Below, piece after piece: positions 3,865 to 54,404 of a stretch of 64,000 nt of DNA; position 1 is the first letter of the stretch; every line of letters begins with the position of its first letter. This DNA is from Actinomycetales bacterium (GTDB taxonomy: Bacteria; Actinomycetota; Actinomycetes; Actinomycetales; Kineosporiaceae): NCBI GenBank assembly GCA_012719445.1, contig JAAYAH010000212.1:1-64000 (forward strand), in the 5' to 3' direction. The position numbers and the translations under genes are program-made. The notes beneath the pieces were generated by a model. It saw only the letters and a list, made by a program, of their open reading frames with translations. It was not told where the DNA came from and searched no databases.

Positions 3865-4092
3865 GAGGTGCTCCAGGTGGTCGAGCGGACGGCTCGTCGA
3901 GCCGGACACGGTGGGTGGAACCCGTCCGGTGGGACTCAGGCCGGGCCGGCGAGGGATTACCCTCACCGGCCGAGGCCCGTCGAACGCGAGTCGGTCGGGC
4001 GGGATGCGGGATGCGCTGCCGCGCCCCGCCCGACCGGCAGTCCCCCCCTGTCAGCCGGCGCAACGGCTGTCGGGTGAGCGCCTGGGCGAGTG

Positions 4093-7620: not shown

Positions 7621-7622
7621 CG

Positions 7623-29830: not shown

Positions 29831-29953
29831 GAGGCTCTCCGTCGAGCGGCGCGAGGTCCGGGGGCCGGTGTCCGCCTCTCCGAGGTACCCCCCGTCCGAC
29901 GGCCCCTTCACCGTCGGCAAGAGACGTCATTCCGGACATCCGGGACGGTAACC

Positions 29954-36699: not shown

Positions 36700-38817
<2,118 letters not shown>

Positions 38818-38921
38818 CCGGCTCCCGCCGCAGCATCCGGCACCGCCCCCGCCGGCGCCCGTACCACCCGGCACCGCCCGTCCGCCTCGGCCTCGGCCTC
38901 GACCTCGACCTCGGAGCAGTG

Positions 38922-41084
38922 ATGACGACGCAGCACGAGTTCCCGTTCTCGGACCTGATCATGGGCTACGTCACGGAGTTCGACCCGGCCGCCGACAGCC
39001 TGACGGTCACCACGACCGACGGACGGCCGTACGAGATCGGGATGCACCCGCTGACCTCGGCGGAGATCGTCCGGAACCTCGGCGAGCCCTACCGCGACGC
39101 CACCGACTCCCTGCGCGACCGGTTCACCCCCGGCCGGCTGGTGTTCGTCTACGGCACCTACCTGCCCGGGACGGAGACGACCCGGTTCGAGGCCAAGAAG
39201 ATCCTGTTCCTCGGTGACCGGCCGGACGAGTACCGCTTCGAGGAGCGCACCTGGTGGGTGGACCAGTTGCGGCAGATGGCCGACTACTACCTGCGGGCGG
39301 AGTTCGGCGACGGCCCCGTCGACTGGCACGAGTACCGCACCACCCTCACCGCGGACGGCAGGAAGACCGACGAGGACAGCCACCGCCAGGAGTGCGACAC
39401 CATCTCCCGCCTGGTCTACGGCATGGCCTCGGCCTACCTGCTCACCGGCGACGACCGCTTCCGGGAGGCGGCGGAGACGGGGACCGAGTACCTGCGGACG
39501 CACTTCCGCGGCACCGACCCGGAGACCGGCACCAGCTTCTGGTACCACGCCATCGACTGGGTGCAGACCGGAACCGGTGAGACCACGAGCGTCCACGAAC
39601 GCAAGGTGTTCGCCTCGGAGTTCGGTGACGACTACGACGCCGTCCCCCTGTACGAGCAGATCTACGCGCTCGCCGGACCGGTGCAGACCTTCCGGATCAG
39701 CGGCGACCCCCGCGTCCTCGCCGACGTCACCAGCACCGCCGACCTGTTCGACAGGTACTTCCTCGACAACGAGCTCGGCGGGTACTTCAGCCACGCCGAC
39801 CCGATCGACTTCGACCCCAGGGCGCCGCAGCTCGGCCAGGACCGCGCCCGCAAGAACTGGAACTCGGTCGGCGACCACGCCCCCGCCTACCTGATCAACG
39901 TCGTCGCCGCCACCGCGGGGGAGAAGCGGTGGACGGAGATGCTGACGATGACGGCGGACACCGTCATCGCGCACTTCGGGGACTACGAGAACAGTCCGTT
40001 CGTCAACGAGCGCTTCTTCGAGGACTGGTCCATGGACCAGTCCTGGGGCTGGCAGCAGAACCGGGCCGTGGTCGGCCACAACCTGAAGATCGCCTGGAAC
40101 CTCATGCGGGTGCAGAACCTCGCGCCCCGGGACGAGTACGTCTCCTTCGCCCGCCGCATCGCCGAGGTCATGCCCGCCGCGGGCAGCGACCAGCAGCGCG
40201 GCGGGTGGTACGACGTCGTCGAACGGACCAGGCGGGACGGCGACCTCTTCTTCCCGTTCGCCTGGCACGACCGCAAGGCCTGGTGGCAGCAGGAACAGGC
40301 GATCCTCGCCTACCTGGTCCTCGCCGGCTGCCTGGGTGACGAGGAGTACCGGCGCAGGGCGCGGGAGGCGGCCGCCTTCTACAACGCCTGGTTCCTCGAC
40401 CACGACTCCGGGGGCGTGTACTTCAACGTGCTCGCCAACGGGATCCCCTACCTCCTGGGGACCGAGCGACTCAAGGGCAGCCACTCGATGGCCGGGTACC
40501 ACAGCTTCGAGCTGTGCTACCTCGCCGCCACCTACACCAACCTGCTGCTCACCCGGCAGCCGCTGGACCTCTACTTCAAGCCGATGGCGGACCAACTGCC
40601 CGACCGGGTCCTGCACATCTCCCCCGACCTGCTGCCGCCCGGCGCCGTCAGGATCCGGCGGGTGTGGGTCGACGGCGTCCCCAGCGAGGACTTCGACGAC
40701 GAGACGCTCGCCGTCCGGATCCCCGAGGGGCCCGACCGACCGACGGTCCGGGTGGAGCTGGTCCCGGCCGAGTGCGGCGACAGCCACGACCTCCGCCTCG
40801 ACACCGACGGCACGACGACGACGGTGACCCTGGTCGGTGATGTCGGCGAGCACGCGCTGGCCGAACTGCGGGCCGCCCTCGCCGAGCTGCCGGCCGCCGA
40901 CCCCCGGCAGGTGGTCTTCGACCTGGACGAGGCCGACTCCCTCTCCCCTGCGGTCTGCCGCGCGATCGCCTTCGCCTGCTCGAAGCTCGACCTCGGCTGC
41001 GAGGTGGTCATGCGCGGAGCCTGCGCCTCGATCAGGGCCGACCTGGACGCCGTCGACCTGTCGGAGGCGGTCCGCTTCGACTGA
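38922..41084 (+). CDS. AGE-family epimerase/isomerase fused to a C-terminal STAS-like domain
   Basis: The product has 720 residues; the ATG at 38922 is 5 nt after GGAG (a GTG sits immediately before it). Residues 1-105 are a beta-rich segment I do not recognise ('LIMGYVTEFDPAADSLTV'). About 108-560 form an (alpha/alpha)6 barrel of the N-acylglucosamine 2-epimerase type: 'TISRLVYGMASAYLLTGD', 'SFWYHAIDWVQTG', 'DYENSPFVNERFFEDWSMDQ', 'RRDGDLFFPFAWHDRKAWWQ'. About 565-630 is a short beta domain. About 633-720 looks like a STAS domain: 'VTLVGDVGEHALAELRAAL', 'VVFDLDEADSLSPAV', with a Ser where anti-sigma antagonists are phosphorylated. AGE enzymes epimerise or isomerise sugars; STAS domains transmit regulatory signals. 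Their fusion is unusual. No signal peptide. Confidence 0.8.
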   Translation: MTTQHEFPFSDLIMGYVTEFDPAADSLTVTTTDGRPYEIGMHPLTSAEIVRNLGEPYRDATDSLRDRFTPGRLVFVYGTYLPGTETTRFEAKKILFLGDRPDEYRFEERTWWVDQLRQMADYYLRAEFGDGPVDWHEYRTTLTADGRKTDEDSHRQECDTISRLVYGMASAYLLTGDDRFREAAETGTEYLRTHFRGTDPETGTSFWYHAIDWVQTGTGETTSVHERKVFASEFGDDYDAVPLYEQIYALAGPVQTFRISGDPRVLADVTSTADLFDRYFLDNELGGYFSHADPIDFDPRAPQLGQDRARKNWNSVGDHAPAYLINVVAATAGEKRWTEMLTMTADTVIAHFGDYENSPFVNERFFEDWSMDQSWGWQQNRAVVGHNLKIAWNLMRVQNLAPRDEYVSFARRIAEVMPAAGSDQQRGGWYDVVERTRRDGDLFFPFAWHDRKAWWQQEQAILAYLVLAGCLGDEEYRRRAREAAAFYNAWFLDHDSGGVYFNVLANGIPYLLGTERLKGSHSMAGYHSFELCYLAATYTNLLLTRQPLDLYFKPMADQLPDRVLHISPDLLPPGAVRIRRVWVDGVPSEDFDDETLAVRIPEGPDRPTVRVELVPAECGDSHDLRLDTDGTTTTVTLVGDVGEHALAELRAALAELPAADPRQVVFDLDEADSLSPAVCRAIAFACSKLDLGCEVVMRGACASIRADLDAVDLSEAVRFD

Positions 41085-41169
41085 CCCGAACTCGCACCGC
41101 CCACCCGCCCCGTTCCGCAGCCGCCGACCGTCATCTCGCAGCCGCCGACTGCAGCCGCCGACCGCAGCC

Positions 41170-41230
41170 GCCGACCGGTGGCCAATGGGGGTCATAACCC
41201 GGGTTCAGGCCCGGTTGGCCACCGGTCGGC
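41170..41230. repeat. Large intergenic palindrome, copy B of the two-copy element
   Basis: Perfect 16-nt arms (41170-41185, 41215-41230: GCCGACCGGTGGCCAA and complement) share their sequence with copy A at 10526-10582. The 29-nt centre differs and contains its own palindrome AACCCGGGTT (41196-41205). As in copy A, degenerate tandem repeats (here GCAGCCGCCGACCG, about 41115-41176) run directly into the left arm. It lies between the AGE/STAS gene and the DJ-1 gene. Confidence 0.75.
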
Positions 41231-41338
41231 GGGAGGCCCGCCGCGGGAGACCTTGCTGAGGGAGACCTGCTGCGGGAGACCCACGGAGAGACCTACCGGC
41301 AGACCGGCTGACACCGACGATCGTTCTGGAGGAGACCG

Positions 41339-42202
41339 ATGAGGCACGTCCTGTTCGTCATCTCGGAGTGGGGCTACTGGGGCGAGGAGCTCATCGGCCC
41401 GCTGGCGGCCTGCGACGAGGCCGGGTACCGGGTGAGCTTCTGCACCCCGACCGGGCAGCGGCCGACGGCGCTCACGGTGAGCATGGACCCCTCCTACCTC
41501 GACCCGCCGCTTGGCCGCCCGGTGACCAGTGAGGAGATGGCGGCGAGGACCCGCGCCCTCGTCGAGTCCGACCGGCTGGACAAGCCGATCGACCTGTCGA
41601 GCTGGGTGCCCGCCAGGCCGTATCCCAGCTCGCCGGACTACCTCCGGGAGCTGGAGTCGTACTTCTCCCGGGTGGACGAGATCGTCCGCGACGAGCTCAC
41701 CGCGTACGACGCCATGGTCATCGTCGGTGGCAGCGGCGCCATGGTCGACCTGGCGAACAACGCCCGGCTGCACGAACTGGTCCTCGGCTTCGTCAGACTC
41801 GACAAGCCGATCGCCGCGGAGTGCTACGGGGTGGCCACCCTCGCGTTCGCCAGGGACTTCCGGGAGAAGCGGAGCATCATCGCCGGCCGCCACGTCACCG
41901 GGCACCCGCTGGACTACGACTACGCCGACGGCACCGGCTTCGAGGGCCCGCACGCCCTCGACGGGTCGAACACCGGTTTCGGCGACGGCTGGATCAACTT
42001 CGGCGCCCCGTTCTACCCGCTGGAGCACATCCTCCGCGACGCCGTCGGACCGGACGGCCGGTTCATCGGCAACGTCGGCCATCGCACCTCGGTGATCGTC
42101 GACTACCCGTTCGTCACCGGCCGGTCCACCGCCTGCGCGACGGAGTGCGGGCAGGTGCTGGTCCGGGTCCTCGACGAGGGCCTGCGCCGCTACGGCTGGT
42201 GA
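41339..42202 (+). CDS. DJ-1/PfpI superfamily protein (class I amidotransferase-like), long form
   Basis: The product has 287 residues; the ATG at 41339 follows GGAGGAGACCG. The fold begins 'RHVLFVISEWGYWGEEL' with the conserved acidic residue, then 'GYRVSFCTPTGQRP', 'YDAMVIVGGSGAMVDL' and the nucleophile elbow with Cys162 in 'PIAAECYGVATLAF'. It is longer than DJ-1 (about 190) and resembles Hsp31/glyoxalase-III-like or PfpI-type members with an inserted cap (about 55-115). Known activities in the superfamily: glyoxalase III, deglycase (disputed), chaperone, isocyanide hydratase, amidase. It starts the tightly spaced run 41339-47181; a second DJ-1 homologue closes that run. Confidence 0.82.
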   Translation: MRHVLFVISEWGYWGEELIGPLAACDEAGYRVSFCTPTGQRPTALTVSMDPSYLDPPLGRPVTSEEMAARTRALVESDRLDKPIDLSSWVPARPYPSSPDYLRELESYFSRVDEIVRDELTAYDAMVIVGGSGAMVDLANNARLHELVLGFVRLDKPIAAECYGVATLAFARDFREKRSIIAGRHVTGHPLDYDYADGTGFEGPHALDGSNTGFGDGWINFGAPFYPLEHILRDAVGPDGRFIGNVGHRTSVIVDYPFVTGRSTACATECGQVLVRVLDEGLRRYGW

Positions 42203-42249
42203 GACCGCGAGGGAGAGGGACGAGAGAGAGCGAACGGAGGGACCAGAAG

Positions 42250-43959
42250 ATGACGTCATCCCGGCCGGGACGGTTCGCGGTGCTCGAACAGCTCGCAGCC
42301 GACGGCTTCACGCACATGTTCGGCAACCCCGGAACCGTCGAGCAGGGCCTGCTGGACGAGCTCCGTTCCGTTCCCGACCTCCGCTACGTGCTGACCCTGC
42401 ACGAGACCGTCGCCGTCATGGCGGCGGACGGCTACGCCAGAGCGGGGGGCAGGCCGGGGCTGGTGCAGCTGCACAGCAGCCCAGGGCTCGGCAACGCGAT
42501 CGGCGCGCTGTACCAGGCCCGGCGCGGGCACGCCCCGCTGGTGGTGCTCGGCGGCGACGCGGGGATCCGCTACCAGCCGATGGACGCCCAGATGGCCGGT
42601 GACCTGGTGGGGATGGCCCGGCCGGTCACCAAGTGGGCGGCGATGGCGCCCGACGCGTCGTCGCTGCTGCGGATGCTGCGCCGGGCGGTCAAGGTGGCCT
42701 GCACCCCGCCGTGCGGACCGGTGTACCTGTGCCTGCCCCAGGACGTCATGGACGCGGCGTGCACCGAGCGGGTGGTGCCGACGTCGATCCCGGACACCCG
42801 GGTCAGCCCGGACGAGACCGTGGTGGCCGAGCTGGCCGCCCGGCTCGCCGCGGCCGAGCACCCGCTGATCCTCGTCGGGGACGGGGTGGCGTTCTCCGGG
42901 GCCCAGGTCGAGCTGGCCGCGGTGGCCGAGCTCGTCGGGGCCGAGGTCTGGGACGCCGACGCCGGCGAGCTGAACCTGTCCCACGCCCACCCCTGCTACC
43001 GCGGCGCGACCGGGCACATGTTCGGCGAGCAGAGCCTGGCCGTCACCCGGCGCGCCGACGCGGTGCTCGCCGTCGGCACCTACCTGCTGCCGGAGGTGTT
43101 CCCCGAGCTCGGGGAGATCTTCGCCCCGGACGCCCACGTCGCCCACGTCGACCTCGACCCGGATGCCATCGCCAAGAACCACCGGGTGGACCTCGGCGTC
43201 GTCGCCGACCCGAAGCGCACCCTCGCCGCGCTGGCTGCCCGACTCGCCGACACCATGCCCGAGGCGGCCCGCACCGCCGCCCGGGGCAGGGTGGAGGCCA
43301 TGGCCGAGGCCCGCGCCGGGGCCAGGGCCGCCGAGCTCGCCGCCGACCGCGAGCGGCAGGGCCGCAGTCCGCTGGACTTCGCGGAGTTCGCGGCCGCGCT
43401 CGCCGAGCGGCTGCCGGACGACGCGGTGATCGTCGACGAGGCGCTCACCAACTCCCCCGCGCTGACCCGCTACCGGCCGCCCGAGGTCCCCGGCAGCCAC
43501 CTGCTCACCCGCGGCGGCTCGCTGGGGATCGGGTTCCCGGGTGCCGTCGGCGCCAAGCTCGCGCTGCCGGGACACCCGGTGGTCGGGGTCTCCGGGGACG
43601 GCGGGTCGATGTACACCGCCCAGGCGCTGTGGACGGCGGCCCGGCACCACCTGGACACGGTGTTCGTGGTCTGCAACAACCGCTCCTACCGGCTGCTGCA
43701 GGCCAACATCGGCACCTGGTGGCGCGACCAGGGCATCCCCCGCCACGACTACCCGTTGGCGTTCGACCTGTCGGAGCCGCCGATCCGGTTCGACGAGCTG
43801 GCCTGGTCCATGGGCGTGCTGGGGATCCGGGTGGAGAAGTCGGAGCAGATCGAGCCGGCGATCGACGACGCGTTGTCCACGAAGGGTCCGGTGCTCCTCG
43901 AGGTCGTCGTCGAGGGCGACGTGCATCCCGAGCTCGTCGACGTCCGGTGCGGCCAGTAG
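42250..43959 (+). CDS. Thiamine-diphosphate enzyme, benzoylformate decarboxylase-like
   Basis: The product has 569 residues from the ATG at 42250 (CGGAGGGACCAGAAG before it), 47 nt after the DJ-1 gene. PYR domain: 'GFTHMFGNPGTVEQGLLDEL' and the cofactor-activating Glu52 in 'LTLHETVAVMAADGYARAGG'. Central domain: 'LPQDVMD', 'HPLILVGDGVAFSG'. PP domain: 'SHLLTRGGSLGIGFPGAVGA', TPP/Mg motif 'VSGDGGSMYTAQALW' ending with 'VFVVCNNRSYRLLQ'. The GNPGT...E opening is closer to benzoylformate decarboxylase/carboligases than to acetolactate synthase. It should decarboxylate a 2-oxo acid or join the resulting aldehyde unit to a second carbonyl. No typical ALS small-subunit gene is nearby, so a branched-chain role is unlikely. 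Confidence 0.88.
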   Translation: MTSSRPGRFAVLEQLAADGFTHMFGNPGTVEQGLLDELRSVPDLRYVLTLHETVAVMAADGYARAGGRPGLVQLHSSPGLGNAIGALYQARRGHAPLVVLGGDAGIRYQPMDAQMAGDLVGMARPVTKWAAMAPDASSLLRMLRRAVKVACTPPCGPVYLCLPQDVMDAACTERVVPTSIPDTRVSPDETVVAELAARLAAAEHPLILVGDGVAFSGAQVELAAVAELVGAEVWDADAGELNLSHAHPCYRGATGHMFGEQSLAVTRRADAVLAVGTYLLPEVFPELGEIFAPDAHVAHVDLDPDAIAKNHRVDLGVVADPKRTLAALAARLADTMPEAARTAARGRVEAMAEARAGARAAELAADRERQGRSPLDFAEFAAALAERLPDDAVIVDEALTNSPALTRYRPPEVPGSHLLTRGGSLGIGFPGAVGAKLALPGHPVVGVSGDGGSMYTAQALWTAARHHLDTVFVVCNNRSYRLLQANIGTWWRDQGIPRHDYPLAFDLSEPPIRFDELAWSMGVLGIRVEKSEQIEPAIDDALSTKGPVLLEVVVEGDVHPELVDVRCGQ

Positions 43960-44008
43960 CCGCCCACCGCCCCGGCACCGGGGACACCACCAGGACAGGA
44001 GGAACCAC

Positions 44009-44704
44009 GTGATCCACCAGCTGATCTTCGCGAGCCCCCGGCCGGGGATGACGGAGAAGGAGTTCTGCGACTACTGGGTGCACGGGCACGCCGTGAACTA
44101 CGCGGCGAAGATCCCGCAGATCCGCCGGTACGCCATCGCCACCAGGGTCCCGTTCGGGATGGAGACGACCGAGCCCCTCTGGAGCGGGGTCGGCGAGATC
44201 TGGCTCCGGGACGAGGCCGAGCAGCTCGCCTCGCTGCAGACCCCGGAGTTCCTCGACGGGGCCCGGCGCGACGAGCCGACCTGGGCGGCCTTCTGGCGGA
44301 CCCTGGTCCTGGACACCGACGCCCACGAGTGGCCCGGCAGCGAGCCGCTGTCGGCGGAGCGGGAGTGGGTCAAGGTGTTCTGGCTGGCCAAGCGCAGGGC
44401 CGGGATCCCGCTGGACGTCGCCCGCCGCTACGCGCTCGACGTGCACGCTCCGCTGCTCGCGGCCCTGCCGGGGATGCGGCGGATGGTGCAGGGCCACACC
44501 AGGGACGGCGCGTACGGCGTCGGCGAGGCGACCCTCGACTTCGCCTTCCAGCTCTGGTTCGACTCGGTGGACGCCCTCGTCACCGCGACGGAGAGCGCCG
44601 AGTACCGGGCGGTCGAGGCCGACCGCGGCTCCTTCCTCGAACCCCGGTACCTGCACCGGCTGGTGGCGAGGGAGAACTGGATCATCGGCCCGACCCCGCG
44701 CTGA
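44009..44704 (+). CDS. EthD-domain protein (two dimeric alpha+beta barrel units)
   Basis: The product has 231 residues; the GTG at 44009 follows AGGAGGAACCAC, 49 nt after the ThDP enzyme. Two related halves are visible: 1-105 ('IHQLIFASPRPGMTEKEFCDYWVHGHAVNY') given here only by its key elements H-x-H and the Trp before it, and 118-225 ('VKVFWLAKRRAG', 'YALDVHAPLLAALPGMRR', 'FQLWFDSVDALVTATES'). EthD-type ferredoxin-fold proteins occur in ether degradation and as small cyclases, isomerases or decarboxylases in aromatic polyketide pathways. Which reaction applies is unknown. Its place between a ThDP enzyme and a SnoaL-like protein suggests a step on a reactive carbonyl intermediate (inference). 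Confidence 0.78.
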   Translation: MIHQLIFASPRPGMTEKEFCDYWVHGHAVNYAAKIPQIRRYAIATRVPFGMETTEPLWSGVGEIWLRDEAEQLASLQTPEFLDGARRDEPTWAAFWRTLVLDTDAHEWPGSEPLSAEREWVKVFWLAKRRAGIPLDVARRYALDVHAPLLAALPGMRRMVQGHTRDGAYGVGEATLDFAFQLWFDSVDALVTATESAEYRAVEADRGSFLEPRYLHRLVARENWIIGPTPR

Positions 44705-44773
44705 CCGCTGGCACCGACCGACGACACCGACAGAGCACGGCGACGACACCGACAGAGCGGCGAAGGAGTGACC

Positions 44774-45202
44774 GTGAGCAACCCGCTGGTCCGCACGGCA
44801 CTGCGCGAGGTCTACGAGACCCACATGCGGTACATCGCGGCGCAGGACATCGAGGCCCTCGTGCACGACACGTACACCGACGACGCGGTGCTCGTGCACA
44901 ACTTCCCCTACTTCCCCGGGGAGCCGCCCTACCGGCACGAGGGCATGCAGGCGATCATCGACGCGCAGCGGACGATCTTCGCGCCGGAGAACCACGGCGC
45001 CATCACCGCCGGGCCGACCTTCTCCTATCTGGAGAGCGGGAACGCGATCGTGTTCCAGCTGCACATCCTCTCCCCCACCCGCGGCCGCTGGATGAACACC
45101 GACCTGTGGATCGTCCGGGACGGCAGGCTGGCCGAGCAGTACGTGCTCGGCTACCCGCTGGACCGGATCGACGAGCAGTGGACGGCGGCCCCGCCGTGCT
45201 GA
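44774..45202 (+). CDS. SnoaL-like/NTF2-fold protein
   Basis: The product has 142 residues. The GTG at 44774 is 5 nt after AAGGAG; the GTG at 44768 would be too close. The cone-shaped NTF2 fold is recognisable from 'REVYETHMRYIAAQDIEALV', 'TYTDDAVLVHNFP', 'RHEGMQAIIDAQRTIF', 'AIVFQLHILSPTRGRWMNTDLW' (split) and 'RDGRLAEQYVLGYPLD'. Such proteins act as ketosteroid isomerases, polyketide cyclases, hydrolases or dehydratases; an acidic residue in the pocket is often catalytic. The specific activity cannot be read. The ankyrin gene starts inside its last codons, so the two are coupled. Confidence 0.82.
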   Translation: MSNPLVRTALREVYETHMRYIAAQDIEALVHDTYTDDAVLVHNFPYFPGEPPYRHEGMQAIIDAQRTIFAPENHGAITAGPTFSYLESGNAIVFQLHILSPTRGRWMNTDLWIVRDGRLAEQYVLGYPLDRIDEQWTAAPPC

Positions 45203-46227
45203 CCGTCACCGACCTCGCGGGAGCGGTCGGCGTCGGTGACGCCGGGTCGGTGGTCGCGGCGCTGGACAGCGGTGCCGCCGTCGACGCACGGGACAGCGAC
45301 GGGCTGACCCCGTTGATGATCGCCGCGTGCCACGCCAGGACCGACCTCGTCAAGCTGCTGCTCGACGCGGGGGCCGACCTGTTCACGACGGACTCCCGGG
45401 CCGGGGCGACCGCCCTGCACAAGGCCTGCCAGGGCGGCAGCGCCGAGGTGGTCCGGCTGCTGCTGGGCGCCGGGGCGTTCGTGGACGCCGTCGCCGCCTC
45501 CACCGGGCACACCCCGCTCATGGACGCGGTGTGGTTCAAGCAGCCGGACGTCGTGGCGGTGCTGCTGGAGCACGGCGCGAGCCTGAACCTCGGCACCCAC
45601 TACGGGTTCTCGTTCCTGGAGCACCTGGAGTTCGAGAGCCGGTTCTCCGGCGCGGGCGCTGACGCCTTCAACGAGGCGGTGCGGCTCATCCAGGCGCGCA
45701 GGGCGGCGGACGAGCAGGCGACGACAGAGGCCCTGCTCATGTCGGCGGTCTCCCGCGGTGCCGTGGAGACGGTGCGGGAGCTGCTCGCCAGGGGGGTCGA
45801 GGTCGACGCCCGGTTCCCCGTCGTCAACGGCTTCAACGACGCGCACACCCCGCTGCTGGTCGCGGCGAGGGACGGGCACACCGAGATCGTCGAACTGCTG
45901 TGCGCCAACGGCGCGGACGTCAACGCCACCGAGCCGACCTTCGGGGCGGTACCGCTGCACAAGGCGACGTACAACGGGCACGCGGACATCGTCCGGACCC
46001 TGGCGGCCCGGCCGGGGATCGATCTCGACTACCAGGGCATCACCAACGGGTACACCCCGCTGCACGACGCACTGTGGCACGGCTACGCCGAGTGCGCGCG
46101 GGTGCTCATCGAGGCCGGGGCGCGGCTGGACCTGCGCGGCCACGACGGCAAGACCCCGCTCCAGCTCGCCCACGAGTCCTTCGCCCCGGCGCTGGACCTC
46201 GTGCGGCTCATCACCAGCCGGCTGTAG
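45196..46227 (+). CDS. Ankyrin-repeat protein
   Basis: The product has 343 residues with a GTG at 45196 that overlaps the SnoaL-like stop by 7 nt; the ribosome site is poor, so it probably relies on translational coupling. About eight ankyrin repeats fill the sequence, e.g. 'DGLTPLMIAACHARTDLVKL', 'GATALHKACQGGSAEVVRLL', 'GHTPLMDAVWFKQPDVVAVL', 'AHTPLLVAARDGHTEIVELL', 'GYTPLHDALWHGYAECARVL'. A less regular segment lies at about 150-180. No signal peptide or membrane helix. Ankyrin arrays bind proteins; a scaffold or inhibitor role for the enzymes of the cluster is an inference. Ankyrin proteins inside small metabolic operons are uncommon in actinobacteria. Confidence 0.85.
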   Translation: MLTVTDLAGAVGVGDAGSVVAALDSGAAVDARDSDGLTPLMIAACHARTDLVKLLLDAGADLFTTDSRAGATALHKACQGGSAEVVRLLLGAGAFVDAVAASTGHTPLMDAVWFKQPDVVAVLLEHGASLNLGTHYGFSFLEHLEFESRFSGAGADAFNEAVRLIQARRAADEQATTEALLMSAVSRGAVETVRELLARGVEVDARFPVVNGFNDAHTPLLVAARDGHTEIVELLCANGADVNATEPTFGAVPLHKATYNGHADIVRTLAARPGIDLDYQGITNGYTPLHDALWHGYAECARVLIEAGARLDLRGHDGKTPLQLAHESFAPALDLVRLITSRL

Positions 46228-46292
46228 CCGGGGACCACCGGCCGCGGCCGGGCCGAGAGGCCCCGCCGTCGCCGTACCGAGAGGGAGGCACC

Positions 46293-46601
46293 GTGCTGTT
46301 CTACGTCCAGATGCGCTGGAACCATGAGGGCCGCATCTCGCTCGAGGACCTCTGGGAGGTCGAGGAGCAGGAGGCCGAGCACGCCAAGGAGACCATCGAC
46401 TCGGGGATGGTGGTCGGGATCTGGAAGGTGGCCGCCCAGAAGCGGGTCATCGCCGTCGTCGACCTGCCCTCGGCCGAGGAGCTCGACCGCACCGCCCTCG
46501 GGCGGCTGCCGATGCGCGAGTACCTCGAGTTCGAGGAGGTCTGGCCGCTGCGGGACTACCTCGGCTTCGCCGAGGACGTCAAGGCCCGATACCAGGTGTG
46601 A
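46293..46601 (+). CDS. Muconolactone delta-isomerase-like small protein
   Basis: The product has 102 residues with a GTG at 46293 after GAGGGAGGCACC. The sequence 'LFYVQMRWNHEGRISLEDLW', 'EEQEAEHAKETIDSGMVVGI', 'VAAQKRVIAVVDLPSAEELD' and 'LPMREYLEFEEVWPLRDYL' follows the muconolactone isomerase (MIase) ferredoxin fold, which forms decamers and shifts a lactone double bond in the beta-ketoadipate pathway. There are no catA/catB-like genes nearby, so the true substrate is probably different. It is 65 nt after the ankyrin gene and 7 nt before the second DJ-1 gene. Confidence 0.78.
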   Translation: MLFYVQMRWNHEGRISLEDLWEVEEQEAEHAKETIDSGMVVGIWKVAAQKRVIAVVDLPSAEELDRTALGRLPMREYLEFEEVWPLRDYLGFAEDVKARYQV

Positions 46602-46608
46602 GGCCTCG

Positions 46609-47181
46609 ATGCGACTGCGCGGCACGAGGATCGGCATCCTCGTCGAGTCGGACTTCTACGAGCACGAGATCTGGTACTACTCCTACCGGTTCCCGGAGGA
46701 GGGCGCGGAGGTGCGGCTGCTGTCCAGGCTCTGGGGACAGCCCTCGCTGACGTTCACCGGCCACCAGTACCAGGCTCCGCTCACCTGCGAGCACTCGTTC
46801 GAGGCCATGACGGACGCCGAGCTCGGCACCTACTCCGCGATCATCGTGCCGTCCGGCATGGTGTCGGACCGGCTGCGCTGGACCGACGACGTGAGCAAGC
46901 CGGCCGAGGCCACCGAGTTCGTCCGCCGGGCCATGGCCACCCCGGGGATCCTCACCGGGATCATCTGCCACGGCATGTGGCTGCTCGCCACCGCCCCGGA
47001 CCTGGTCAGGGGCCGCGACGTGACCTGTCACAACAACCTGTACGGGGACGTCGTGAACATGGGGGCGCACTACGTCGACGCCGACGTGGTGGTGGACGGC
47101 GACCTGGTCACCGGCCGGACCGGGGCCGAGGCGCACCTGTTCGCCCGGCGGATCATCGACCTGCTCGCCGGGGAGGGCTGA
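46609..47181 (+). CDS. DJ-1/PfpI family protein, short form
   Basis: The product has 190 residues; the ATG at 46609 lies 7 nt after the MIase-like stop. Features: 'TRIGILVESDFYEHEIWYYS' with the active-site acidic residue, 'YSAIIVPSGMVSDRLRW' and the nucleophile elbow Cys120-His121 in 'GIICHGMWLLATAPD', then 'VNMGAHYVDADVVVDGDLVT' and 'GRTGAEAHLF'. This is the standard PfpI length, so it is not simply a copy of the longer homologue at 41339. PfpI/DJ-1 members hydrolyse, hydrate or deglycate small reactive molecules. It closes the run of same-direction genes; after its stop the next gene is convergent. Confidence 0.85.
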   Translation: MRLRGTRIGILVESDFYEHEIWYYSYRFPEEGAEVRLLSRLWGQPSLTFTGHQYQAPLTCEHSFEAMTDAELGTYSAIIVPSGMVSDRLRWTDDVSKPAEATEFVRRAMATPGILTGIICHGMWLLATAPDLVRGRDVTCHNNLYGDVVNMGAHYVDADVVVDGDLVTGRTGAEAHLFARRIIDLLAGEG

Positions 47182-47217: not shown

Positions 47218-48093
47218 TCACCAGTGGGAGCGCCTCCGGCGGAGGAGCCGGGCCCAGAACCCCGAGCGCTGCCCCTGGCGCGGCTGTGCCTGCCAGGAGT
47301 GGCCGGCGAGGTCCTGCTGGTCACCGGCACGGAACGACCGGGGGTACAGCTGCCCCGTGTCGTACCGGTCGTCCGCGGGCTGAGCCGGGGGCTCGGGGCT
47401 CGCGTACTGCTGCTGCCCGTACGACTGCTGTCCGTACGGCTGCTGCCCGAACGACGACCCGGCGCCCTGCGGATCAGCGGCCTGCTGCCCGGTGTACGGC
47501 TGCTGCCCGAACGACGACCCGGTGGCCTGCGGGTCGGCGTAGCGCGGCTGCCCGTACGAGGGCTGGCCGAACGCCGACTCCCTCGGCTGCGCGGTCCCGT
47601 ACGGCGCGCCTCCCTGGGGCTGCTGCCCGTACGGGGGCACAGCCGGCTGCTGCCCGGTGTACGGCTGCTGCCCGGTGTACGACTGCTGCCCGGTGTACGA
47701 CTGCTGGCTGAACAACGACCCGGTGGCCTGCGGGTCGGCGTAGCGCGGCTGCCCATACGAGGGCTGCTCGTACGAGGGCACCGCGGGCTGCTGACCGGTG
47801 TACTGGGGTCCCGCGGGGGGACCGGGCTGGTGGGACGGCGCGGGGGAGGTCCCGACGTCCGTACCGGCCGGCATGGGGGCCTCCGCGCCCTGCAGGTCCA
47901 GGGAGAGCATGGCCGCCGGTGTCCTGCCGTTCGGCAGCAGGGCCAGCGGCACCTTCTGACCGGAGAGGGCGAGCTTCAACCGAGCGCAGTCGTTCCACCC
48001 GCTCTCGCTGTCGCAGTAGGCCTCCCGCCAGCCCGCCAGGCTCGCGTTGAGATGGGGGAACAACGGACAACGCGCGACGCGCTCGCAGCTCAT
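47218..48093 (-). CDS. Protein with Cys-rich N-terminal domain and long Gln/Tyr/Gly/Pro (prion-like) region
   Basis: The product has 291 residues. The ATG at 48093 follows GGAAGGTGTGAG; the upstream frame to 48198 lacks a site. Residues 1-70 form a compact domain with four Cys ('MSCERVARCPLFPHLNASLA', 'WREAYCDSESGWNDCARLKL', ending 'VPLALLPNGRTPAAM'). I have the impression of similar small domains near actinobacterial conservons. Residues about 80-270 are almost only Q, Y, G, P, S, A with repeated 'YTGQQ', 'SYGQP' and a duplicated block 'RYADPQATGS'. The C-terminus is strongly basic (FWARLLRRRRSHW). No membrane helix. The composition predicts a disordered, phase-separating chain. The function is unknown. 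Confidence 0.8.
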   Translation of the reverse strand: MSCERVARCPLFPHLNASLAGWREAYCDSESGWNDCARLKLALSGQKVPLALLPNGRTPAAMLSLDLQGAEAPMPAGTDVGTSPAPSHQPGPPAGPQYTGQQPAVPSYEQPSYGQPRYADPQATGSLFSQQSYTGQQSYTGQQPYTGQQPAVPPYGQQPQGGAPYGTAQPRESAFGQPSYGQPRYADPQATGSSFGQQPYTGQQAADPQGAGSSFGQQPYGQQSYGQQQYASPEPPAQPADDRYDTGQLYPRSFRAGDQQDLAGHSWQAQPRQGQRSGFWARLLRRRRSHW

Positions 48094-48464
48094 CTCACAC
48101 CTTCCGCCGCGTACCGGCCCTCCGCGGTCAGGGCTGTGCCTGATGGCGCGCTGAAGCCGTCGCGCTCCGACGCTGATGGCATCCGCTGGCCTCGGCACCC
48201 TTCAGCCGGCGAGGAGGCTATCTACTGATCCACATGTCCGTCAATGTCCTGGAACCCACTAGATATCCCCCAGAGAGGGAGAAGTCGATCGATGCCGCAC
48301 TGTGCGTCGTCCGCACGATGTGCACGATGTGCAGCGAAAGCGTTTTCTGCACCACTTGGAGGGCATGCGTGCGACGCCGGCGCCCAGCTCCCCGCGATAT
48401 GGCGGCTCCACCGGGGCCTCGGGTTCGAGCGGCTGCCGGACCGTGACCGGGACCCGCACCCGGC
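48094..48464. other. Intergenic region upstream of the Cys-rich/prion-like gene
   Basis: About 370 bp between two minus-strand genes. It contains an AT-richer patch with GATATC (about 48230-48300), probably the promoter of the 48093 gene. No coding frame with a recognisable feature. Confidence 0.4.
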
Positions 48465-49171: not shown

Positions 49172-49843
49172 TCAGCGGAGCCCCTCGCCAGCCACCGGGT
49201 CGCCGAGGGTGAACCACGGCTGCGCGGGGTCGGGTTCCGTGGTGACCTCGGTCGTGAGCTGGATGATGTGCTCGACGAGGGTGAGCAGCAGGGCCTTGCA
49301 GGACTCCCGGCGCCGGACGTCGCAGAGCATGACCGGGACGTCCGGGCCGAGGTCGAGGGCTCGGCGGACCTCGCTCTCGGAGTAGAGCGGGGCGCCGTCG
49401 AAGCAGTTGACCCCGACGATGAAGGGCAGCTCCCGCCGCTCGAAGAAGTCGATGGAGGCGAAGCAGGTGTCCAGGCGGCGCGTGTCGGCGAGAACGATCG
49501 CGCCGAGCGCGCCGAGGGCGAGCTCGTTCCACATGAACCAGAACCGGTCCTGACCGGGGGTGCCGAACAGGTAGAGGATCAGCTCGGGGCTGAGGGTGAT
49601 CCGGCCGAAGTCCAGCGCCACGGTGGTCGTGGTCTTGCTCTCGACCCCGGTGAGGTTGTCCACCCCGATGCTCAGCTCGGTGAGGACCTCCTCGGTGTGC
49701 AGGGGCCTGATCTCGCTGATCGACCCGACCATGGTGGTCTTGCCGACCCCGAACCCTCCTGCCACCAGGATCTTGACCGAAGCGATGCGCAGGCCGCTCG
49801 GTTCCGATGCGGCTGTCGCACGTTCAGAGCTTGCGGATGCCAT
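49172..49843 (-). CDS. Conservon GTP/ATP-binding protein (CvnD-like)
   Basis: The product has 223 residues; the ATG at 49843 overlaps the DUF742 gene by 20 nt. A Ras-like P-loop 'VAGGFGVGKTTMVGSISE' opens the fold; 'LDFGRITL' and 'LYLFGTPGQDRFWFMW' give the switch II/DxxG-like region with the family's GTPGQ variant; 'ALGAIVLADTRRL' and 'VGVNCFD' complete it. CvnD proteins form, with CvnA-C, a membrane-associated module likened to eukaryotic GPCR/small-GTPase signalling and shown in Streptomyces to influence development and secondary metabolism. It is the last of the four cvn genes. Confidence 0.93.
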   Translation of the reverse strand: MASASSERATAASEPSGLRIASVKILVAGGFGVGKTTMVGSISEIRPLHTEEVLTELSIGVDNLTGVESKTTTTVALDFGRITLSPELILYLFGTPGQDRFWFMWNELALGALGAIVLADTRRLDTCFASIDFFERRELPFIVGVNCFDGAPLYSESEVRRALDLGPDVPVMLCDVRRRESCKALLLTLVEHIIQLTTEVTTEPDPAQPWFTLGDPVAGEGLR

Positions 49844-50183
49844 GAAGTACCTCGAACAGGACGGCCTTGTCCGGCGAGATTCCGGAACGGAAGATGACCC
49901 TGCGCTCCTCGACGAGATCGCTGATGAGCACCTTCACCACGCCGAGGGGAAGGGCCATGCTGGCCGCGATCTCGGCGATGGAGAGGGGTCGCTGACAGAG
50001 TTTGAGGATCGTCGTGTACTCGGGCTCGGAGGCGAACCGGCCGGCGTCGGACGACACGGCGACCACCAGAGTGATCATGTCCAGCGGGAGCTGGGCGGAT
50101 CGCGTCCGGCCACGCGTCACCGCGTAGGGCCTGACGAGGGGGCCCGCGTCGTCGTCGAACCACGTCTCGTCGTCCGGGATCAT
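49824..50183 (-). CDS. DUF742 conservon protein (CvnC-like)
   Basis: The product has 119 residues; the ATG at 50183 overlaps the roadblock stop by 4 nt. The DUF742 winged-helix core is clear: 'LVRPYAVTRGRTRS' at the N-terminus, 'ILKLCQRPLSIAEIAASMAL' and 'LGVVKVLISDLVEERRV', ending 'LHGIRKL'. In cvn operons this protein accompanies the kinase-like CvnA and probably binds the GTPase; a DNA-binding role has been suggested from the winged helix. It is cytosolic. Confidence 0.93.
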   Translation of the reverse strand: MIPDDETWFDDDAGPLVRPYAVTRGRTRSAQLPLDMITLVVAVSSDAGRFASEPEYTTILKLCQRPLSIAEIAASMALPLGVVKVLISDLVEERRVIFRSGISPDKAVLFEVLHGIRKL

Positions 50184-50626
50184 GACGCACCCGGGTCGCC
50201 CGCCAGGTGCGTCCGGGAGGATCTCGGTGCCGAGGTGAGCACGCTGCCCACCTGCCGGACCAGGAGGTTCATCTCGTAGACGATGATCCCCAGATCGGCG
50301 TCCTCGGTGGCGAGCAGGGCAAGACAGGCGCCCTGTCCCGCCGCCGTCACGACAAGGACGTTGCGCTCCATCTCCACGACCGTCTGCCGGACCCGCCCGC
50401 AGCCGAAGTGCCTGCTGCTCCCCCTCGCCAGGCTCTGGAAGCCGGAGGCGACGGCCGACAGGTGCTCCGCGTCCTCGGCCGACAGGTTGCGCGACCGACT
50501 GATCGGCAACCCGTCCCCGGAGAGCACCACGGCGCGTTCCGCTCCGACCACGCGTGCGACGAGGTCGTCGAGCAACCAGCTCAGATCGGTGGTGCTGGAA
50601 TTGACCGTCATGGTGGGACCACTCAT
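50180..50626 (-). CDS. Roadblock/LC7 conservon protein (CvnB-like)
   Basis: The product has about 148 residues if started at ATG 50626 (GAAGAG directly before) or 143 from ATG 50611; both are plausible. The roadblock fold is seen in 'DLSWLLDDLVARVVGAERAV', 'VLSGDGLPISRSRNLSAEDA', 'LSAVASGFQSLARG', 'VVEMERNVLVVTAAGQGACL' and 'DLGIIVYEMNLLVRQVG'. It would act as GTPase-activating or scaffold partner of the CvnD protein at the membrane. Thirteen nucleotides separate it from the CvnA stop, and it overlaps CvnC by 4 nt. Confidence 0.92.
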   Translation of the reverse strand: MSGPTMTVNSSTTDLSWLLDDLVARVVGAERAVVLSGDGLPISRSRNLSAEDAEHLSAVASGFQSLARGSSRHFGCGRVRQTVVEMERNVLVVTAAGQGACLALLATEDADLGIIVYEMNLLVRQVGSVLTSAPRSSRTHLAGDPGAS

Positions 50627-50639
50627 CTCTTCACGGCTG

Positions 50640-53333
50640 TCATGACAACGGCGATCGGGGACCGTCCGACCTGGCCTGCCGGGTGCCGCGCTGGATGGCG
50701 GCGTACCTGGCACGTGCCTGTTCCGCGCTGCGCCAGAGATCGGCGGTGGCGTCGGTCTCGGCCTCGGCGGTCCGTCCCTCGTCGCGCAGTTGGGGCGCGA
50801 GATTCGCCTGCCGCGTGCGCCGGGGCAAAGCCGGCCGATCAACGGCCGGGGTCATCGGGTAGGGCAGGTCGGAGGGCTCCACGGCGTCGGTGTGGGTGTT
50901 CCCCGCACCGGCACCTCCGGAACCCCTGCCTGCCGGTGTCGCGCCCCCCTCGGCAGCCGCGGGCGGCACGGCTTCCGTCGACACGGCACCCGTCGGCGGC
51001 ACCGGCCCTGTCGACGGCACAGCGCCGGTCGCCCTGCTCGGTGTCATGGCGTCGGTGGTCGCTGTGCCCGACGCCACAGTGCCCGACGCCACAGTGCCCG
51101 ACGCCACAGTGCCCGAGGCGACCGTGACCGCGGGAACCGTGCCCGTGGGAACCGTGCCCGTGGGAACCGTGCCCGTGGGAACCGTGCCCGTGGGAACCGT
51201 GCCCGCCGCCGTGCCCGACGTCAGCGCACCGGCCGACACAGGGCCCACCGACACTGGACCCACCGACACAGGGCCCGCCGGGACGGTTGCGGGAGCGGTG
51301 AGCTGCTGCCGCCGTCCGTGCATCCGCTGACCCGCGGGGAGCTGCGCCGCCGCCCGGTCGAGGTCGATCCTGAGGTCGCCCTCCGCCGTCGGCGTCTCGG
51401 CGATCAGGGTGGAGGGGATGAGCACGACCGCGCGGGTGCCGCCGTAGATCGGCGACTCGGACAGGGTGACCTGGATGCCGTGTCGAGCGGCCAACCGGGC
51501 CACGACGAAGAGCCCGAGCCGGGGCTCGTCGGCCAACGCCATGATCGAGAAGTCGGGTGCGGCCCGGAGCATGGCGTTGAGCCGGCCCAGCTGGTCCGGT
51601 GCGATGCCGATGCCCTGGTCCTCGACCTCGATGACCACTCCCCTGCCGACCACGTTCCCCCGGACCTCGACCCGGGACGTCGGTGGGCCGAAGACCACCG
51701 CGTTGTCGACCAGCTCGGCGACGATGTGCACGAGGTCGGCGACCACCGTGCCGTCCAGCCAGCACCCCGGCAGCCGCACGGTGGCGACCCGGGTGTACTG
51801 CTCCGTCTCGGCGATCGCGCTGCGCACCACCTGGACCAGCGACACCGGCTTGCGCCACCGGCGTCCGGGCTGCTCGCCGGCGAGGATGATGAGGTTCTCG
51901 GCGTTGCGCCGGGACCTGGTGGCGAGGTGGTCGAGCTGGAACAGCACGCCCAGCTGGTCCGGGTCCTCCTGGGTGCGCTCGGCCTGGTCCAGCAGCTCGA
52001 GCTGACGGTGGACCACGGCCTGGCTCCTGCGGGCGATGTTGAGGAACACCAGCCGGGTTCCGGTCCTGGTCGCTGCCTCCTGCGCCGCGGCATCGACGGC
52101 CGTGCGCTGGGCCTTGGTGAACGCCTCGGCCACCTGGCCGATCTCGTCCCCGCCGTGGTCGAGCGGCGGCAGCTCGGCTTCGAGGTCGACGCGCTCCCCG
52201 CGGCGGAGCCGGTCGACCAGCGCCGGCAGCTTCTCGTCCGCCAGGGCGAGCGTCTCCGACCGCAGCGCGGACAGCCGCCGGACGAGCACGTTCGAGAGCT
52301 GGAGGGCGATGACGAACACCAGCAGGGCGAGGAGCAGCAACCCGAACCCGCTCAGCAGCGCCCTGACGAAGGTGTTCCGCGCCGTCGTCGCGGCCAGGTC
52401 GGAGGCGTGCGCGGAGTGGCTGACGTAGAGCTGCAGCAGGGCGGTGGTGACCTCGGTGGTCGCGGTCCGCAGGGTCTGCGCACCCGGCAGCTGGGGAAGG
52501 TTCCGGCCCGAGGCCGCGGTGAGGCCGGCACCGGGGGCATTGGCGGCGAACCCGGCCGTCGTCACGGCGTCCTCGACCGCGACGATCGTGGCCCAGGCGG
52601 AACTGGAGGTGAGCGAGGTGTACATCGCCCGTTCCCCCGGGGTCATCCGCGGGACGAGGGACTCCAGGGCCGTGTGGTAGCTGACGATCTGGCGGTTGTA
52701 CTCCTGGACGAGGTCCCTGCGCAGCCCGCCGCCCTCGAGGATCGCCGACCGCAGCACCGTGCTCCGGGCCATGCCCTCGGCCGCGGCGAAGAGTTCGGCG
52801 CCGACGAGTTTCTCGTACGCCGACTCGACGTCGGGGGCCGAGCGCGCCAATTCGGTGAGCACGGCGGTGAAGATGTCGATGTAGCGGTTGAAGGACTGGT
52901 AGACGACGAGGGGGGCGACCCCGCCGGAATCCACCTGTTCCCTCAGGTCAGGCAGTTCCTCCACCACCCGGTCCAGGCCGGCGAGAGCCTCCCTCAATTC
53001 GGGTGAGCCTCCCGTCGAGAGCGCCGTGGCGACGTCCCCGATATTGACGAGCTCGGTGTCCACCTTTTTCCGGAGCGTGGGAAGCTCGCCGGGGCCGCCC
53101 TGCGGGTTCACCATTTTCCGCAGGCTGGCCAGACGCTCGGCCTGAATGGCTGCGATCATCAATGCCGCAGGTGCCGCGGCATCCGCGCTCGTCGTCGAGG
53201 AATCCTGGATCCTTTTCCCCTCGCGGGCGAGGTACCCGGTCACCCCGATTCCGACCAGCAGCAACGCGATACTCGGGACGAGCGCGATGGCCAGGACGCG
53301 GGTACGGATACTCGGCTGGCCTGCGCGTGACAT
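50640..53333 (-). CDS. Nitrate/nitrite-sensor-type histidine kinase-like protein (CvnA-like)
   Basis: The product has about 897 residues from ATG 53333 (GGAG nine bases before); a GTG at 53360 is the alternative. An N-terminal helix (about 12-35), a large extracytoplasmic NIT (nitrate-nitrite sensing) domain (about 40-310, 'LMIAAIQAERLASLRKMV'), a second helix (about 318-345), a HAMP-like linker, then a dimerisation region ('VFLNIARRSQAVVHRQLELL') and an HATPase domain ('ELVDNAVVFGPPTSRVEV', 'VEDQGIGIAP', 'LGLFVVARLAARHGI'). The usual phospho-His box is not obvious, as in other CvnA proteins. The C-terminal 230 residues are low-complexity with GTVPT, GTVAS and VGPVS repeats. It is the sensor of the conservon. 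Confidence 0.9.
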   Translation of the reverse strand: MSRAGQPSIRTRVLAIALVPSIALLLVGIGVTGYLAREGKRIQDSSTTSADAAAPAALMIAAIQAERLASLRKMVNPQGGPGELPTLRKKVDTELVNIGDVATALSTGGSPELREALAGLDRVVEELPDLREQVDSGGVAPLVVYQSFNRYIDIFTAVLTELARSAPDVESAYEKLVGAELFAAAEGMARSTVLRSAILEGGGLRRDLVQEYNRQIVSYHTALESLVPRMTPGERAMYTSLTSSSAWATIVAVEDAVTTAGFAANAPGAGLTAASGRNLPQLPGAQTLRTATTEVTTALLQLYVSHSAHASDLAATTARNTFVRALLSGFGLLLLALLVFVIALQLSNVLVRRLSALRSETLALADEKLPALVDRLRRGERVDLEAELPPLDHGGDEIGQVAEAFTKAQRTAVDAAAQEAATRTGTRLVFLNIARRSQAVVHRQLELLDQAERTQEDPDQLGVLFQLDHLATRSRRNAENLIILAGEQPGRRWRKPVSLVQVVRSAIAETEQYTRVATVRLPGCWLDGTVVADLVHIVAELVDNAVVFGPPTSRVEVRGNVVGRGVVIEVEDQGIGIAPDQLGRLNAMLRAAPDFSIMALADEPRLGLFVVARLAARHGIQVTLSESPIYGGTRAVVLIPSTLIAETPTAEGDLRIDLDRAAAQLPAGQRMHGRRQQLTAPATVPAGPVSVGPVSVGPVSAGALTSGTAAGTVPTGTVPTGTVPTGTVPTGTVPAVTVASGTVASGTVASGTVASGTATTDAMTPSRATGAVPSTGPVPPTGAVSTEAVPPAAAEGGATPAGRGSGGAGAGNTHTDAVEPSDLPYPMTPAVDRPALPRRTRQANLAPQLRDEGRTAEAETDATADLWRSAEQARARYAAIQRGTRQARSDGPRSPLS
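51064..51206. repeat. 15-nt tandem repeats in the CvnA-like C-terminal tail
   Basis: Three exact units plus one variant of GTGCCCGACGCCACA (51064-51123), followed by five units of GGGAACCGTGCCCGT (51132-51206, last base changed). They encode Val-Ala-Ser-Gly-Thr and Pro-Thr-Gly-Thr-Val pentapeptides on the minus strand. In-frame length changes are likely between strains. Confidence 0.92.
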
Positions 53334-53360
53334 CGGACCGAACTCCACTGACCGTCTCAC

Positions 53361-53756
53361 GCCCTTTCATCGCCCGCTCACCACACGCCGGTGTCGAGGG
53401 AAAGGGCACGAATGCCCAGGCGTCGGGCTCGCAGCACAGGCTAGGGAGTCACGCGGTGCACGTCAATCATCGGGGTGGTCCGCCGAGGGGCCCCGGAAAC
53501 GACCCGATCATTGACCGGCACCCGCGGGACACCTGCATAAACAACGGAGAGTAATGGGAGTCATGCACTCGGTGAACACATGGTGAGTCTCGCGACATCG
53601 CACCTCACCCGGCACCTCACCCGCCCGTGCCGGACCGGGTCGAGGTCACGGAGAACCGCCCGACGGTTGCCGCACCGGGGGTCGTCAGCAGATCATGTCT
53701 CGCCCGGCGTCGGGAACCCTCTGCCGGGGCCAGGTCCCTTTGGGGGTGTGACGAGC
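53361..53756. other. Divergent region between the conservon and the SigE-type sigma gene
   Basis: About 395 bp without a recognised gene. It contains an inverted repeat, GTCAATCATCGGG (53462-53474) and CCCGATCATTGAC (53503-53515), 12 of 13 positions paired, 28 nt apart, with GGGGCCCC (53487-53494) near the centre. AT-richer stretches follow at about 53530-53580. Promoters for both directions are expected. Confidence 0.5.
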
Positions 53757-54404
53757 ATGGGTCACCGTCGTCGGACGGACGCGCCACCGGGCTTCGAGGA
53801 GTTCACCACGGCGAGGTATACGGCCCTGGTCCGGCTCGGGACGCTGCTCACCGGTGACCCCCACCACGGCGAGGACCTGACCCAGGCGGCCCTGGTCGCC
53901 GTGCTGCGCGCGTGGCCCCGGTTGCATCCGGACGGCGACCCGGAGTCCTACGCCCGGCGGGTGATGACCCGGCTGGCCGGGAAGGCCGGGCGCCGCCGTT
54001 GGCGGGGAGAGGTCCCGACGGAGCCGCTGCCGGACGGCGAACTGCTCGCCCCGCAGGACCGCGTCGCCGACACCGTCGACGCACAACGCCTGCTGGCCGG
54101 TCTGCCGACGCCGCTGCGGCAGGTGCTGGTCCTGCGGTTCTGGCTCGACTACGGGGAGGCCAGGACGGCCGCCGAGCTCGGCTGCTCGATCGGCACGGTC
54201 AAGAGCAGGACCCACCGGGCCCTTGCCCGGCTGCGGGCGACGGTGTCCCGGCCGACGACCGGGACCGGGGGCGTCGACCGGGTCGCGGGCCGGGATGAGG
54301 CCGGGCGCGGAACCGGGGTCCGGCCCGTGCCGCCGCCGGAGGACGACGCCCCCGTCCCCGGCTCCTCCGGCGAGATGTCGCGATGGATCGAGGCGCTGCC
54401 GTGA
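53757..54404 (+). CDS. SigE-family RNA polymerase sigma-70 factor (ECF type)
   Basis: The product has 215 residues from ATG 53757; a GTG at 53748 is possible and the frame extends to 53580 without a site. Sigma region 2: 'FEEFTTARYTALVRLGTLLT', 'HHGEDLTQAALVAVLRAWPR', 'YARRVMTRLAGKAGRRRWRG'. Region 4: 'LPTPLRQVLVLRFWLDYGEA', 'AELGCSIGTVKSRTHRALAR'. This is the SigE-like ECF subgroup common in actinomycetes (name by similarity, not the M. tuberculosis stress SigE). It would direct RNA polymerase to a small regulon. The GTGA overlap with the next gene suggests a membrane partner of anti-sigma type. Confidence 0.92.
   Translation: MGHRRRTDAPPGFEEFTTARYTALVRLGTLLTGDPHHGEDLTQAALVAVLRAWPRLHPDGDPESYARRVMTRLAGKAGRRRWRGEVPTEPLPDGELLAPQDRVADTVDAQRLLAGLPTPLRQVLVLRFWLDYGEARTAAELGCSIGTVKSRTHRALARLRATVSRPTTGTGGVDRVAGRDEAGRGTGVRPVPPPEDDAPVPGSSGEMSRWIEALP

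Follow-up and report, generated by a model that had tools for sequence, protein, structure and literature searches.

The 64,000-nucleotide stretch analysed here (the window: positions 1 to 64,000 of contig JAAYAH010000212.1, assembly GCA_012719445.1, from an actinomycete of the Kineosporiaceae) carries nine consecutive genes on the + strand at 36700-47181, in the order GlgX, AGE-STAS, DJ-1A, a thiamine diphosphate (ThDP) enzyme, EthD, SnoaL-like, ankyrin, a muconolactone-isomerase-like (MIase) protein and DJ-1B. The comparisons show that they form one copy of a modular gene set that is widespread and moves horizontally. In it, module 1 consists of GlgX, the AGE-like protein, STAS and DJ-1B, and module 2 of DJ-1A and the ThDP enzyme. 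Module 3 consists of EthD, SnoaL-ankyrin and MIase and is replaceable by a GMC oxidoreductase, a VOC protein and a small protein. Taken as a whole, the cluster is best explained as a modular icfG-type set that would serve a metabolism leading from glycogen to carbonyl compounds, a reading to which we assign a probability of roughly 0.55.

Relatives were collected by a scan of GTDB species genomes, which gave 424 candidates with distant matches included (E up to 1e-3). The best 80 of the 424, with 55-75% identity, were fetched; flanks were 10 kb for most loci compared, and the counts given here refer either to 66 loci with full flanks or to all 88 loci. The fetched relatives belong to Cyanobacteriota, Actinomycetota, Planctomycetota, Chloroflexota, Deinococcota, Thermodesulfobacteriota and Pseudomonadota; Runella adds Bacteroidota, and the one Bacillota relative comes from a record flagged as possible contamination. 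Relatives of DJ-1A and the ThDP enzyme thus span about nine phyla at approximately 50-75% identity and are often plasmid-borne. On plasmids searched by tblastn, copies of DJ-1A with 50-59% identity stand with the same partners; the hosts are Nostoc, Streptomyces, Deinococcus, Runella and Gemmobacter. The conjugative plasmid pNe_3 of Nostoc edaphicum carries DJ-1A-ThDP-EthD-ankyrin (484 amino acids)-MIase in the same order as the window. The ThDP gene directly follows DJ-1A in 65 of the 66 fully flanked loci, which contain DJ-1B in 54, AGE in 43 and GlgX in 36 cases. Within the fetched stretches, all five core genes were found in 41 of the 88 loci and four of them in 14 more. A prediction made earlier from the window's sequence (the original prediction) had proposed that neighbourhoods keeping only one or two of the genes would speak against a new system; the relatives retain far more than that. 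Because the linkage is conserved across many phyla, the idea that the genes are chance neighbours with no shared function is refuted; nothing in its favour was found and we consider its probability practically nil.

The set is rare where closer relatives of the host were searched. Of 12 further genomes of the family that were searched, none had the cluster at the thresholds used. In 396 actinobacterial genomes, EthD, AGE and DJ-1A gave almost no matches; AGE and DJ-1A were confined to one and the same pair of genomes, and in the second of these they lie about 6 kb from each other. The association also extends beyond the immediate neighbourhood: when DJ-1A has no AGE within 10 kb, that AGE lies elsewhere in 27 of 28 genomes, sometimes a few tens of kb away on the same contig. 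Among 166 cyanobacterial genomes, DJ-1A was found in 5, AGE in 13 and both in 4. Saccharothrix sp. ALI-22-I holds two cluster copies (L075 and L084) of different sub-lineages. No publication on the combined gene set was found among open-licence PMC papers.

The modules differ in how tightly their members are bound. DJ-1B and AGE are fused into one gene in loci L055, L069, L071 and L087, and their divergence across phyla correlates with a rho of 0.77, followed by 0.50 for AGE and GlgX and a weak 0.27 for DJ-1A and the ThDP enzyme. In module 3, all 11 loci with MIase have EthD and 10 of them have ankyrin. The alternative set comprises the VOC-GMC genes and a small protein without a Pfam match, and by the queries used ankyrin and GMC never occurred in the same locus. 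The ankyrin protein, regarded in the original prediction as a scaffold amid the set, does stand there, but is tied to the SnoaL protein: the two form a single protein in L011 and L015 and, judging by the reading frame, also in L025. The window copy itself looks like a mosaic, because in the DJ-1A tree it groups with cyanobacterial, planctomycete and Actinoplanes copies, away from most actinobacteria, whereas actinobacterial copies are the nearest relatives of its MIase (72-82% identical) and its EthD. Small Nif11-domain protein pairs stand beside GMC oxidoreductase pairs (L006 15471-16131, L008, L079 and L123); such pairs are annotated as natural-product precursors, yet they are kept as partners of the GMC genes across several phyla. 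In several cyanobacteria a gene for a TMEM175-type potassium channel lies beside the AGE/DJ-1B module (L119 4110-4784, L121 15901-16635 and L127 12070-12756), identified by a Pfam match for L119 and by similar sequence for the other two.

Part of the set corresponds to a known system. According to PMC8670252, the slr1852-slr1862 operon of Synechocystis PCC 6803 contains Slr1855 (2-epimerase), Slr1856 (anti-sigma antagonist), GlgX and IcfG. An Rsb/Spo-like kinase, a phosphatase and two phosphoproteins make up the icfG cluster in Shi et al. 1999, which that paper cites along with Beuf et al. 1994. Cyanobacteria that have AGE and no DJ-1A show the order DJ-1B-AGE-STAS-GlgX-STAS together with RsbW and SpoIIE genes (L149-L156). 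Their AGE proteins are 56-59% identical to that of the window and share with it the GHNLK motif, K312, Q379 and the three histidines. A Streptomyces plasmid joins both halves in one array, EthD-DJ-1A-ThDP-DJ-1B-AGE-STAS-GlgX-STAS-RsbW-SpoIIE, and in the window an AGE-like protein of this subfamily adjoins GlgX, as in the icfG-type cluster. On the strength of the icfG-order loci, the AGE identity and hallmarks and this plasmid, the window cluster is therefore filed as a probable variant of the icfG kind, the comparison with Synechocystis being one of gene order and published description. In Synechocystis, module 1 would have its counterpart in the enzymatic half of the operon, the other half being the Rsb/Spo-like kinase/phosphatase switch, so the set can be described as a core of the icfG type to which an exchangeable module for carbonyl chemistry is joined. 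The cluster had been called unassigned in the original prediction; this holds for the whole set, which matches no described pathway, but not for its GlgX-AGE-STAS-DJ-1 part. CMD, EthD and SnoaL proteins often lie beside the icfG-order cyanobacterial loci. Next to the icfG-type module in L150 are a 1054-amino-acid CMD-EthD-VOC(glyoxalase)-SnoaL-SnoaL protein (3250-6411) and a 495-amino-acid Nif11-SnoaL-SnoaL-ABM protein (6444-7928). L151 has open reading frames similar in size and start to these two multidomain proteins.

The window and the icfG operon have in common an AGE-like protein, a STAS anti-sigma antagonist and GlgX. Unlike the operon, the window has no kinase, phosphatase or stand-alone STAS gene nearby, and it adds DJ-1A, ThDP, EthD, SnoaL, ankyrin and MIase. 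A tblastn search with relatives of RsbW and SpoIIE gave no match at 30-52 kb of the window. Its STAS domain is fused into the AGE protein, and where stand-alone STAS proteins have the acceptor motif SSAG it reads SPAV, the acceptor Ser being replaced by Pro. The earlier statement that the cluster has no regulator is thus partly true, as STAS is a partner-switching domain. Because of the fusion, the lost acceptor Ser and the lack of a switch kinase or phosphatase nearby, the window STAS probably serves for assembly and not as a phospho-switch. Elsewhere the switch is more complete, with STAS in 19 of 43 AGE loci, RsbW in 18 of 66 and SpoIIE in 14 of 66 loci. These counts, and the description of icfG as coordinating inorganic carbon and glucose metabolism in titles cited in PMC8670252, favour a mainly regulatory system, in which GlgX and the AGE-like protein would be sugar sensors or partner-switching substrates and the other enzymes the output of a carbon-use circuit. 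We consider this improbable. Full conservation of the three AGE histidines and of the Glu, Cys and His of DJ-1B, together with GH13 motifs that can be read in the window GlgX, is what one expects of working enzymes, and the window copy has neither the nearby switch genes nor an intact acceptor motif.

The GlgX of the window passes TIGR02100 (697 against a cut-off of 641 bits) and groups with the GlgX of other clusters, with 61% identity to a planctomycete copy, while two further GlgX genes of the genome (C174 and C255) are 46% identical to it. The model of the AGE-like protein, with a predicted local distance difference test (pLDDT) score of 86, has glucose-2-epimerase, cellobiose 2-epimerase and mannose isomerase as its best structural matches; for the Runella glucose-2-epimerase, E is 2e-19 and the template modelling score is 0.79 by target. 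Plasmid-record rows were left out of the alignments behind the AGE and DJ-1A structure predictions. H320, H387, H522, K390 and Q379 are invariant. AGE enzymes use paired histidines via an enediol, plus a third histidine (PMC5726027), and by motif H320, H387 and H522 are the putative active-site triad. The cluster protein thus resembles the AGE superfamily (glucose and cellobiose 2-epimerases, mannose isomerase, YihS) in its (alpha/alpha)6 fold and three His. It differs from the sugar 2-epimerases in its extra N- and C-terminal domains and in two positions: in the alignment, D254 of the Runella enzyme is matched by the invariant Gln379, and the invariant Lys390 takes the place of the Glu in GHxxE, whereas an ordinary AGE of the same genome has GHGLE. 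The loss of two acids and the gain of a lysine suggest a charged substrate. One internal TAG hinted at stop-codon read-through in AGE, but in those cases that were checked this proved to be an artefact, the codon being the stop that ends the protein.

The remaining enzymes are related to named families and set apart from their characterised members. The ThDP enzyme has benzoylformate decarboxylases as its best relatives in the PDB. Like these it retains the equivalents of His70 and Glu47, and unlike them it has no equivalent of His281 (residues whose roles we take from family knowledge) and misses the NF005485 equivalog cut-off (307 against 493 bits). The MIase protein likewise misses that of TIGR03221 (28 against 131 bits). 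The family names of these two proteins are what speaks for an aromatic catabolism of the mandelate or beta-ketoadipate type built around benzoylformate decarboxylase and muconolactone isomerase. Given the missed cut-offs and the absent His281, with no ring-cleavage or catechol gene seen and alpha-glucan genes as constant companions, such a pathway is strongly disfavoured and was rejected. DJ-1A and DJ-1B are both below all NCBIfam cut-offs of the named DJ-1, PfpI and glyoxalase III models. E13, C120 and H121 of DJ-1B are present in 100% of 70 relatives. In DJ-1A, which matches 1u9c, SAV0551 and Hsp31 in Foldseek, E17, C162 and Y163 are invariant, with Tyr where His would follow the Cys.

How could such a set work? 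By family, GlgX yields linear malto-oligosaccharides; reducing sugars are isomerised or epimerised by AGE enzymes, and 2-oxoaldehydes converted to hydroxy acids by DJ-1 enzymes; ThDP lyases use 2-oxo acids as substrates; and SnoaL, EthD and MIase folds carry out proton shifts and ring chemistry. Chaining these activities would give a coherent glycogen-to-carbonyl pathway, with accessory functions taken from family membership. In module 1, GlgX would trim branched alpha-glucan (glycogen) to linear malto-oligosaccharides, the AGE-like enzyme would apply histidine enediol chemistry to a glucan-derived, probably negatively charged sugar, and DJ-1B would act on a carbonyl compound from that step. 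In module 2, the ThDP enzyme would cleave or join a sugar-derived 2-oxo acid and DJ-1A would act on a reactive aldehyde or dicarbonyl of this step. Module 3 would isomerise or cyclise the product, and its ankyrin protein would serve to hold the SnoaL domain. That the substrate derives from a sugar, as the original prediction had it, is more likely than could then be known, because GlgX and often GlgE, TreS and maltokinase accompany the set. The hydroxyketone or lactone that the prediction would have made from a 2-oxo acid is a speculative product. The GlgE/TreS/maltokinase alpha-glucan clusters of actinobacteria lack the AGE/DJ-1/ThDP core; such genes adjoin several relatives and were not found beside the window cluster. 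A more specific version remains tentative and we would not rely on it: a pathway not yet described would turn glycogen-derived reducing ends or sugar acids into a specific small molecule, AGE with its anion-binding lysines, DJ-1 and the ThDP lyase making the scaffold and either EthD/SnoaL-ankyrin/MIase or GMC/VOC setting the final product. If true, the icfG switch would control the flow from glycogen into that small molecule.

The main rival to the glycogen-to-carbonyl reading is stress protection, in which a set induced by carbon, salt or drying would mobilise glycogen and remove sugar-derived reactive carbonyls (methylglyoxal, glyoxal, deoxyosones). The DJ-1, VOC, reductase and small-barrel proteins would then be detoxifiers and not a biosynthetic line. 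Two DJ-1 proteins in the core, the VOC, AKR, quinone-reductase-like and GMC genes at many loci, the Rsb/Spo-like switch genes beside module 1 and hosts such as Nostoc, Deinococcus and Streptomyces all agree with it. It is nevertheless rather unlikely, as detoxification alone leaves the strictly linked ThDP enzyme, the MIase-EthD-SnoaL-ankyrin module and the altered AGE site unexplained, and PMC8670252 describes the Synechocystis operon as salt-repressed, not induced.

Several points weigh against the reading that we prefer. Pairwise divergence of DJ-1A and DJ-1B shows no positive correlation across phyla. The modules therefore reassort, and the idea that the core genes are all inherited together as one block holds only partly, for DJ-1B and AGE. 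AGE occurs without DJ-1A in 9 of the 13 AGE-bearing cyanobacterial genomes of the one sample, therefore the modules need not be one linear pathway. L015 has GMC-like and VOC-like proteins between EthD and ankyrin, which means that the alternative sets are not strictly exclusive. Another glucan could be the substrate of GlgX, and L149-L156 are equated with icfG by their gene order and by the published description of the operon. The enzymatic half of icfG (AGE, GlgX, DJ-1) has for decades been known mainly as neighbours of a phosphoprotein switch. In the comparisons it emerges as a mobile metabolic module whose AGE protein has a distinctive active site; time and again it is combined with the same ThDP/DJ-1 pair and with either of two enzyme sets. 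With these modules occurring in culturable Streptomyces, Actinoplanes and Nostoc, what the icfG cluster makes or removes is directly testable.

Table 1. Genes and domains of the cluster in the window.
Feature	Coordinates	Strand	Support
GlgX, isoamylase-type glycogen debranching enzyme, cluster-specific copy	36700..38817	+	TIGR02100, CBM48 + alpha-amylase domains
AGE-superfamily protein: N-terminal beta domain, (alpha/alpha)6 barrel, C-terminal beta domain, fused STAS	38919..41084	+	PF07221 (GlcNAc_2-epim), predicted structure
STAS domain of AGE protein	40788..41081	+	alignment with stand-alone STAS genes; strand/helix pattern of model
DJ-1A, Hsp31/glyoxalase III-like fold	41339..42202	+	PF17124 (ThiJ_like)/PF01965
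ThDP-dependent decarboxylase/carboligase, benzoylformate decarboxylase type	42250..43959	+	PF02775, PF02776, PF00205
Two-domain EthD protein	44009..44704	+	PF07110, two stretches
SnoaL/NTF2-like protein	44768..45202	+	SnoaL_2 below cut-off, 24.2 vs 27 bits
Ankyrin-repeat protein, GTG start, 7 nt overlap with SnoaL gene	45196..46227	+	Ank_2 2e-50
Muconolactone-isomerase-fold (MIase) protein, 102 aa	46293..46601	+	PF02426 3e-13
DJ-1B, PfpI type	46609..47181	+	PF01965; E13, C120-H121

The window has 72% GC and belongs to a genome of 5.4 Mb in 283 contigs; all nine genes show the codon-position GC pattern typical of real genes. The original prediction described seven closely spaced genes from 41339 to 47181 on one strand, and coordinates, + strand and spacing are all as described, the gaps from DJ-1A through DJ-1B being 47, 49, 63, -7, 65 and 7 nucleotides. 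The proposed families are borne out by Pfam, with SnoaL below the cut-off in the window and above it in an ankyrin-fused relative. For the AGE/STAS gene placed at the head, AGE is confirmed by Pfam while STAS, with no Pfam hit, comes from alignment and model. The cluster begins one gene earlier, with GlgX, its companion in the relatives, which was overlooked. The gap between AGE and DJ-1A is about 254 nucleotides.

Anti-phage defence was dismissed, as PADLOC gave only generic ankyrin-repeat and GlgB-like matches. Upstream of the cluster lies a divergent phosphoglucose isomerase gene, and downstream, convergent with it, a gene (47218-48198, - strand) for a Gln/Tyr/Pro-rich protein with YTGQQ-like repeats and no Pfam match. 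Farther away are a GH6 cellulase with a CBM2 domain (28019-29926, - strand) and an ECF-type sigma factor (53541-54404, + strand). At 49172-53360 on the - strand, a NIT-domain histidine kinase-like ATPase, a roadblock/LC7 protein and an ATP/GTP-binding protein stand in a row, which we take to be the make-up of an actinobacterial conservon.

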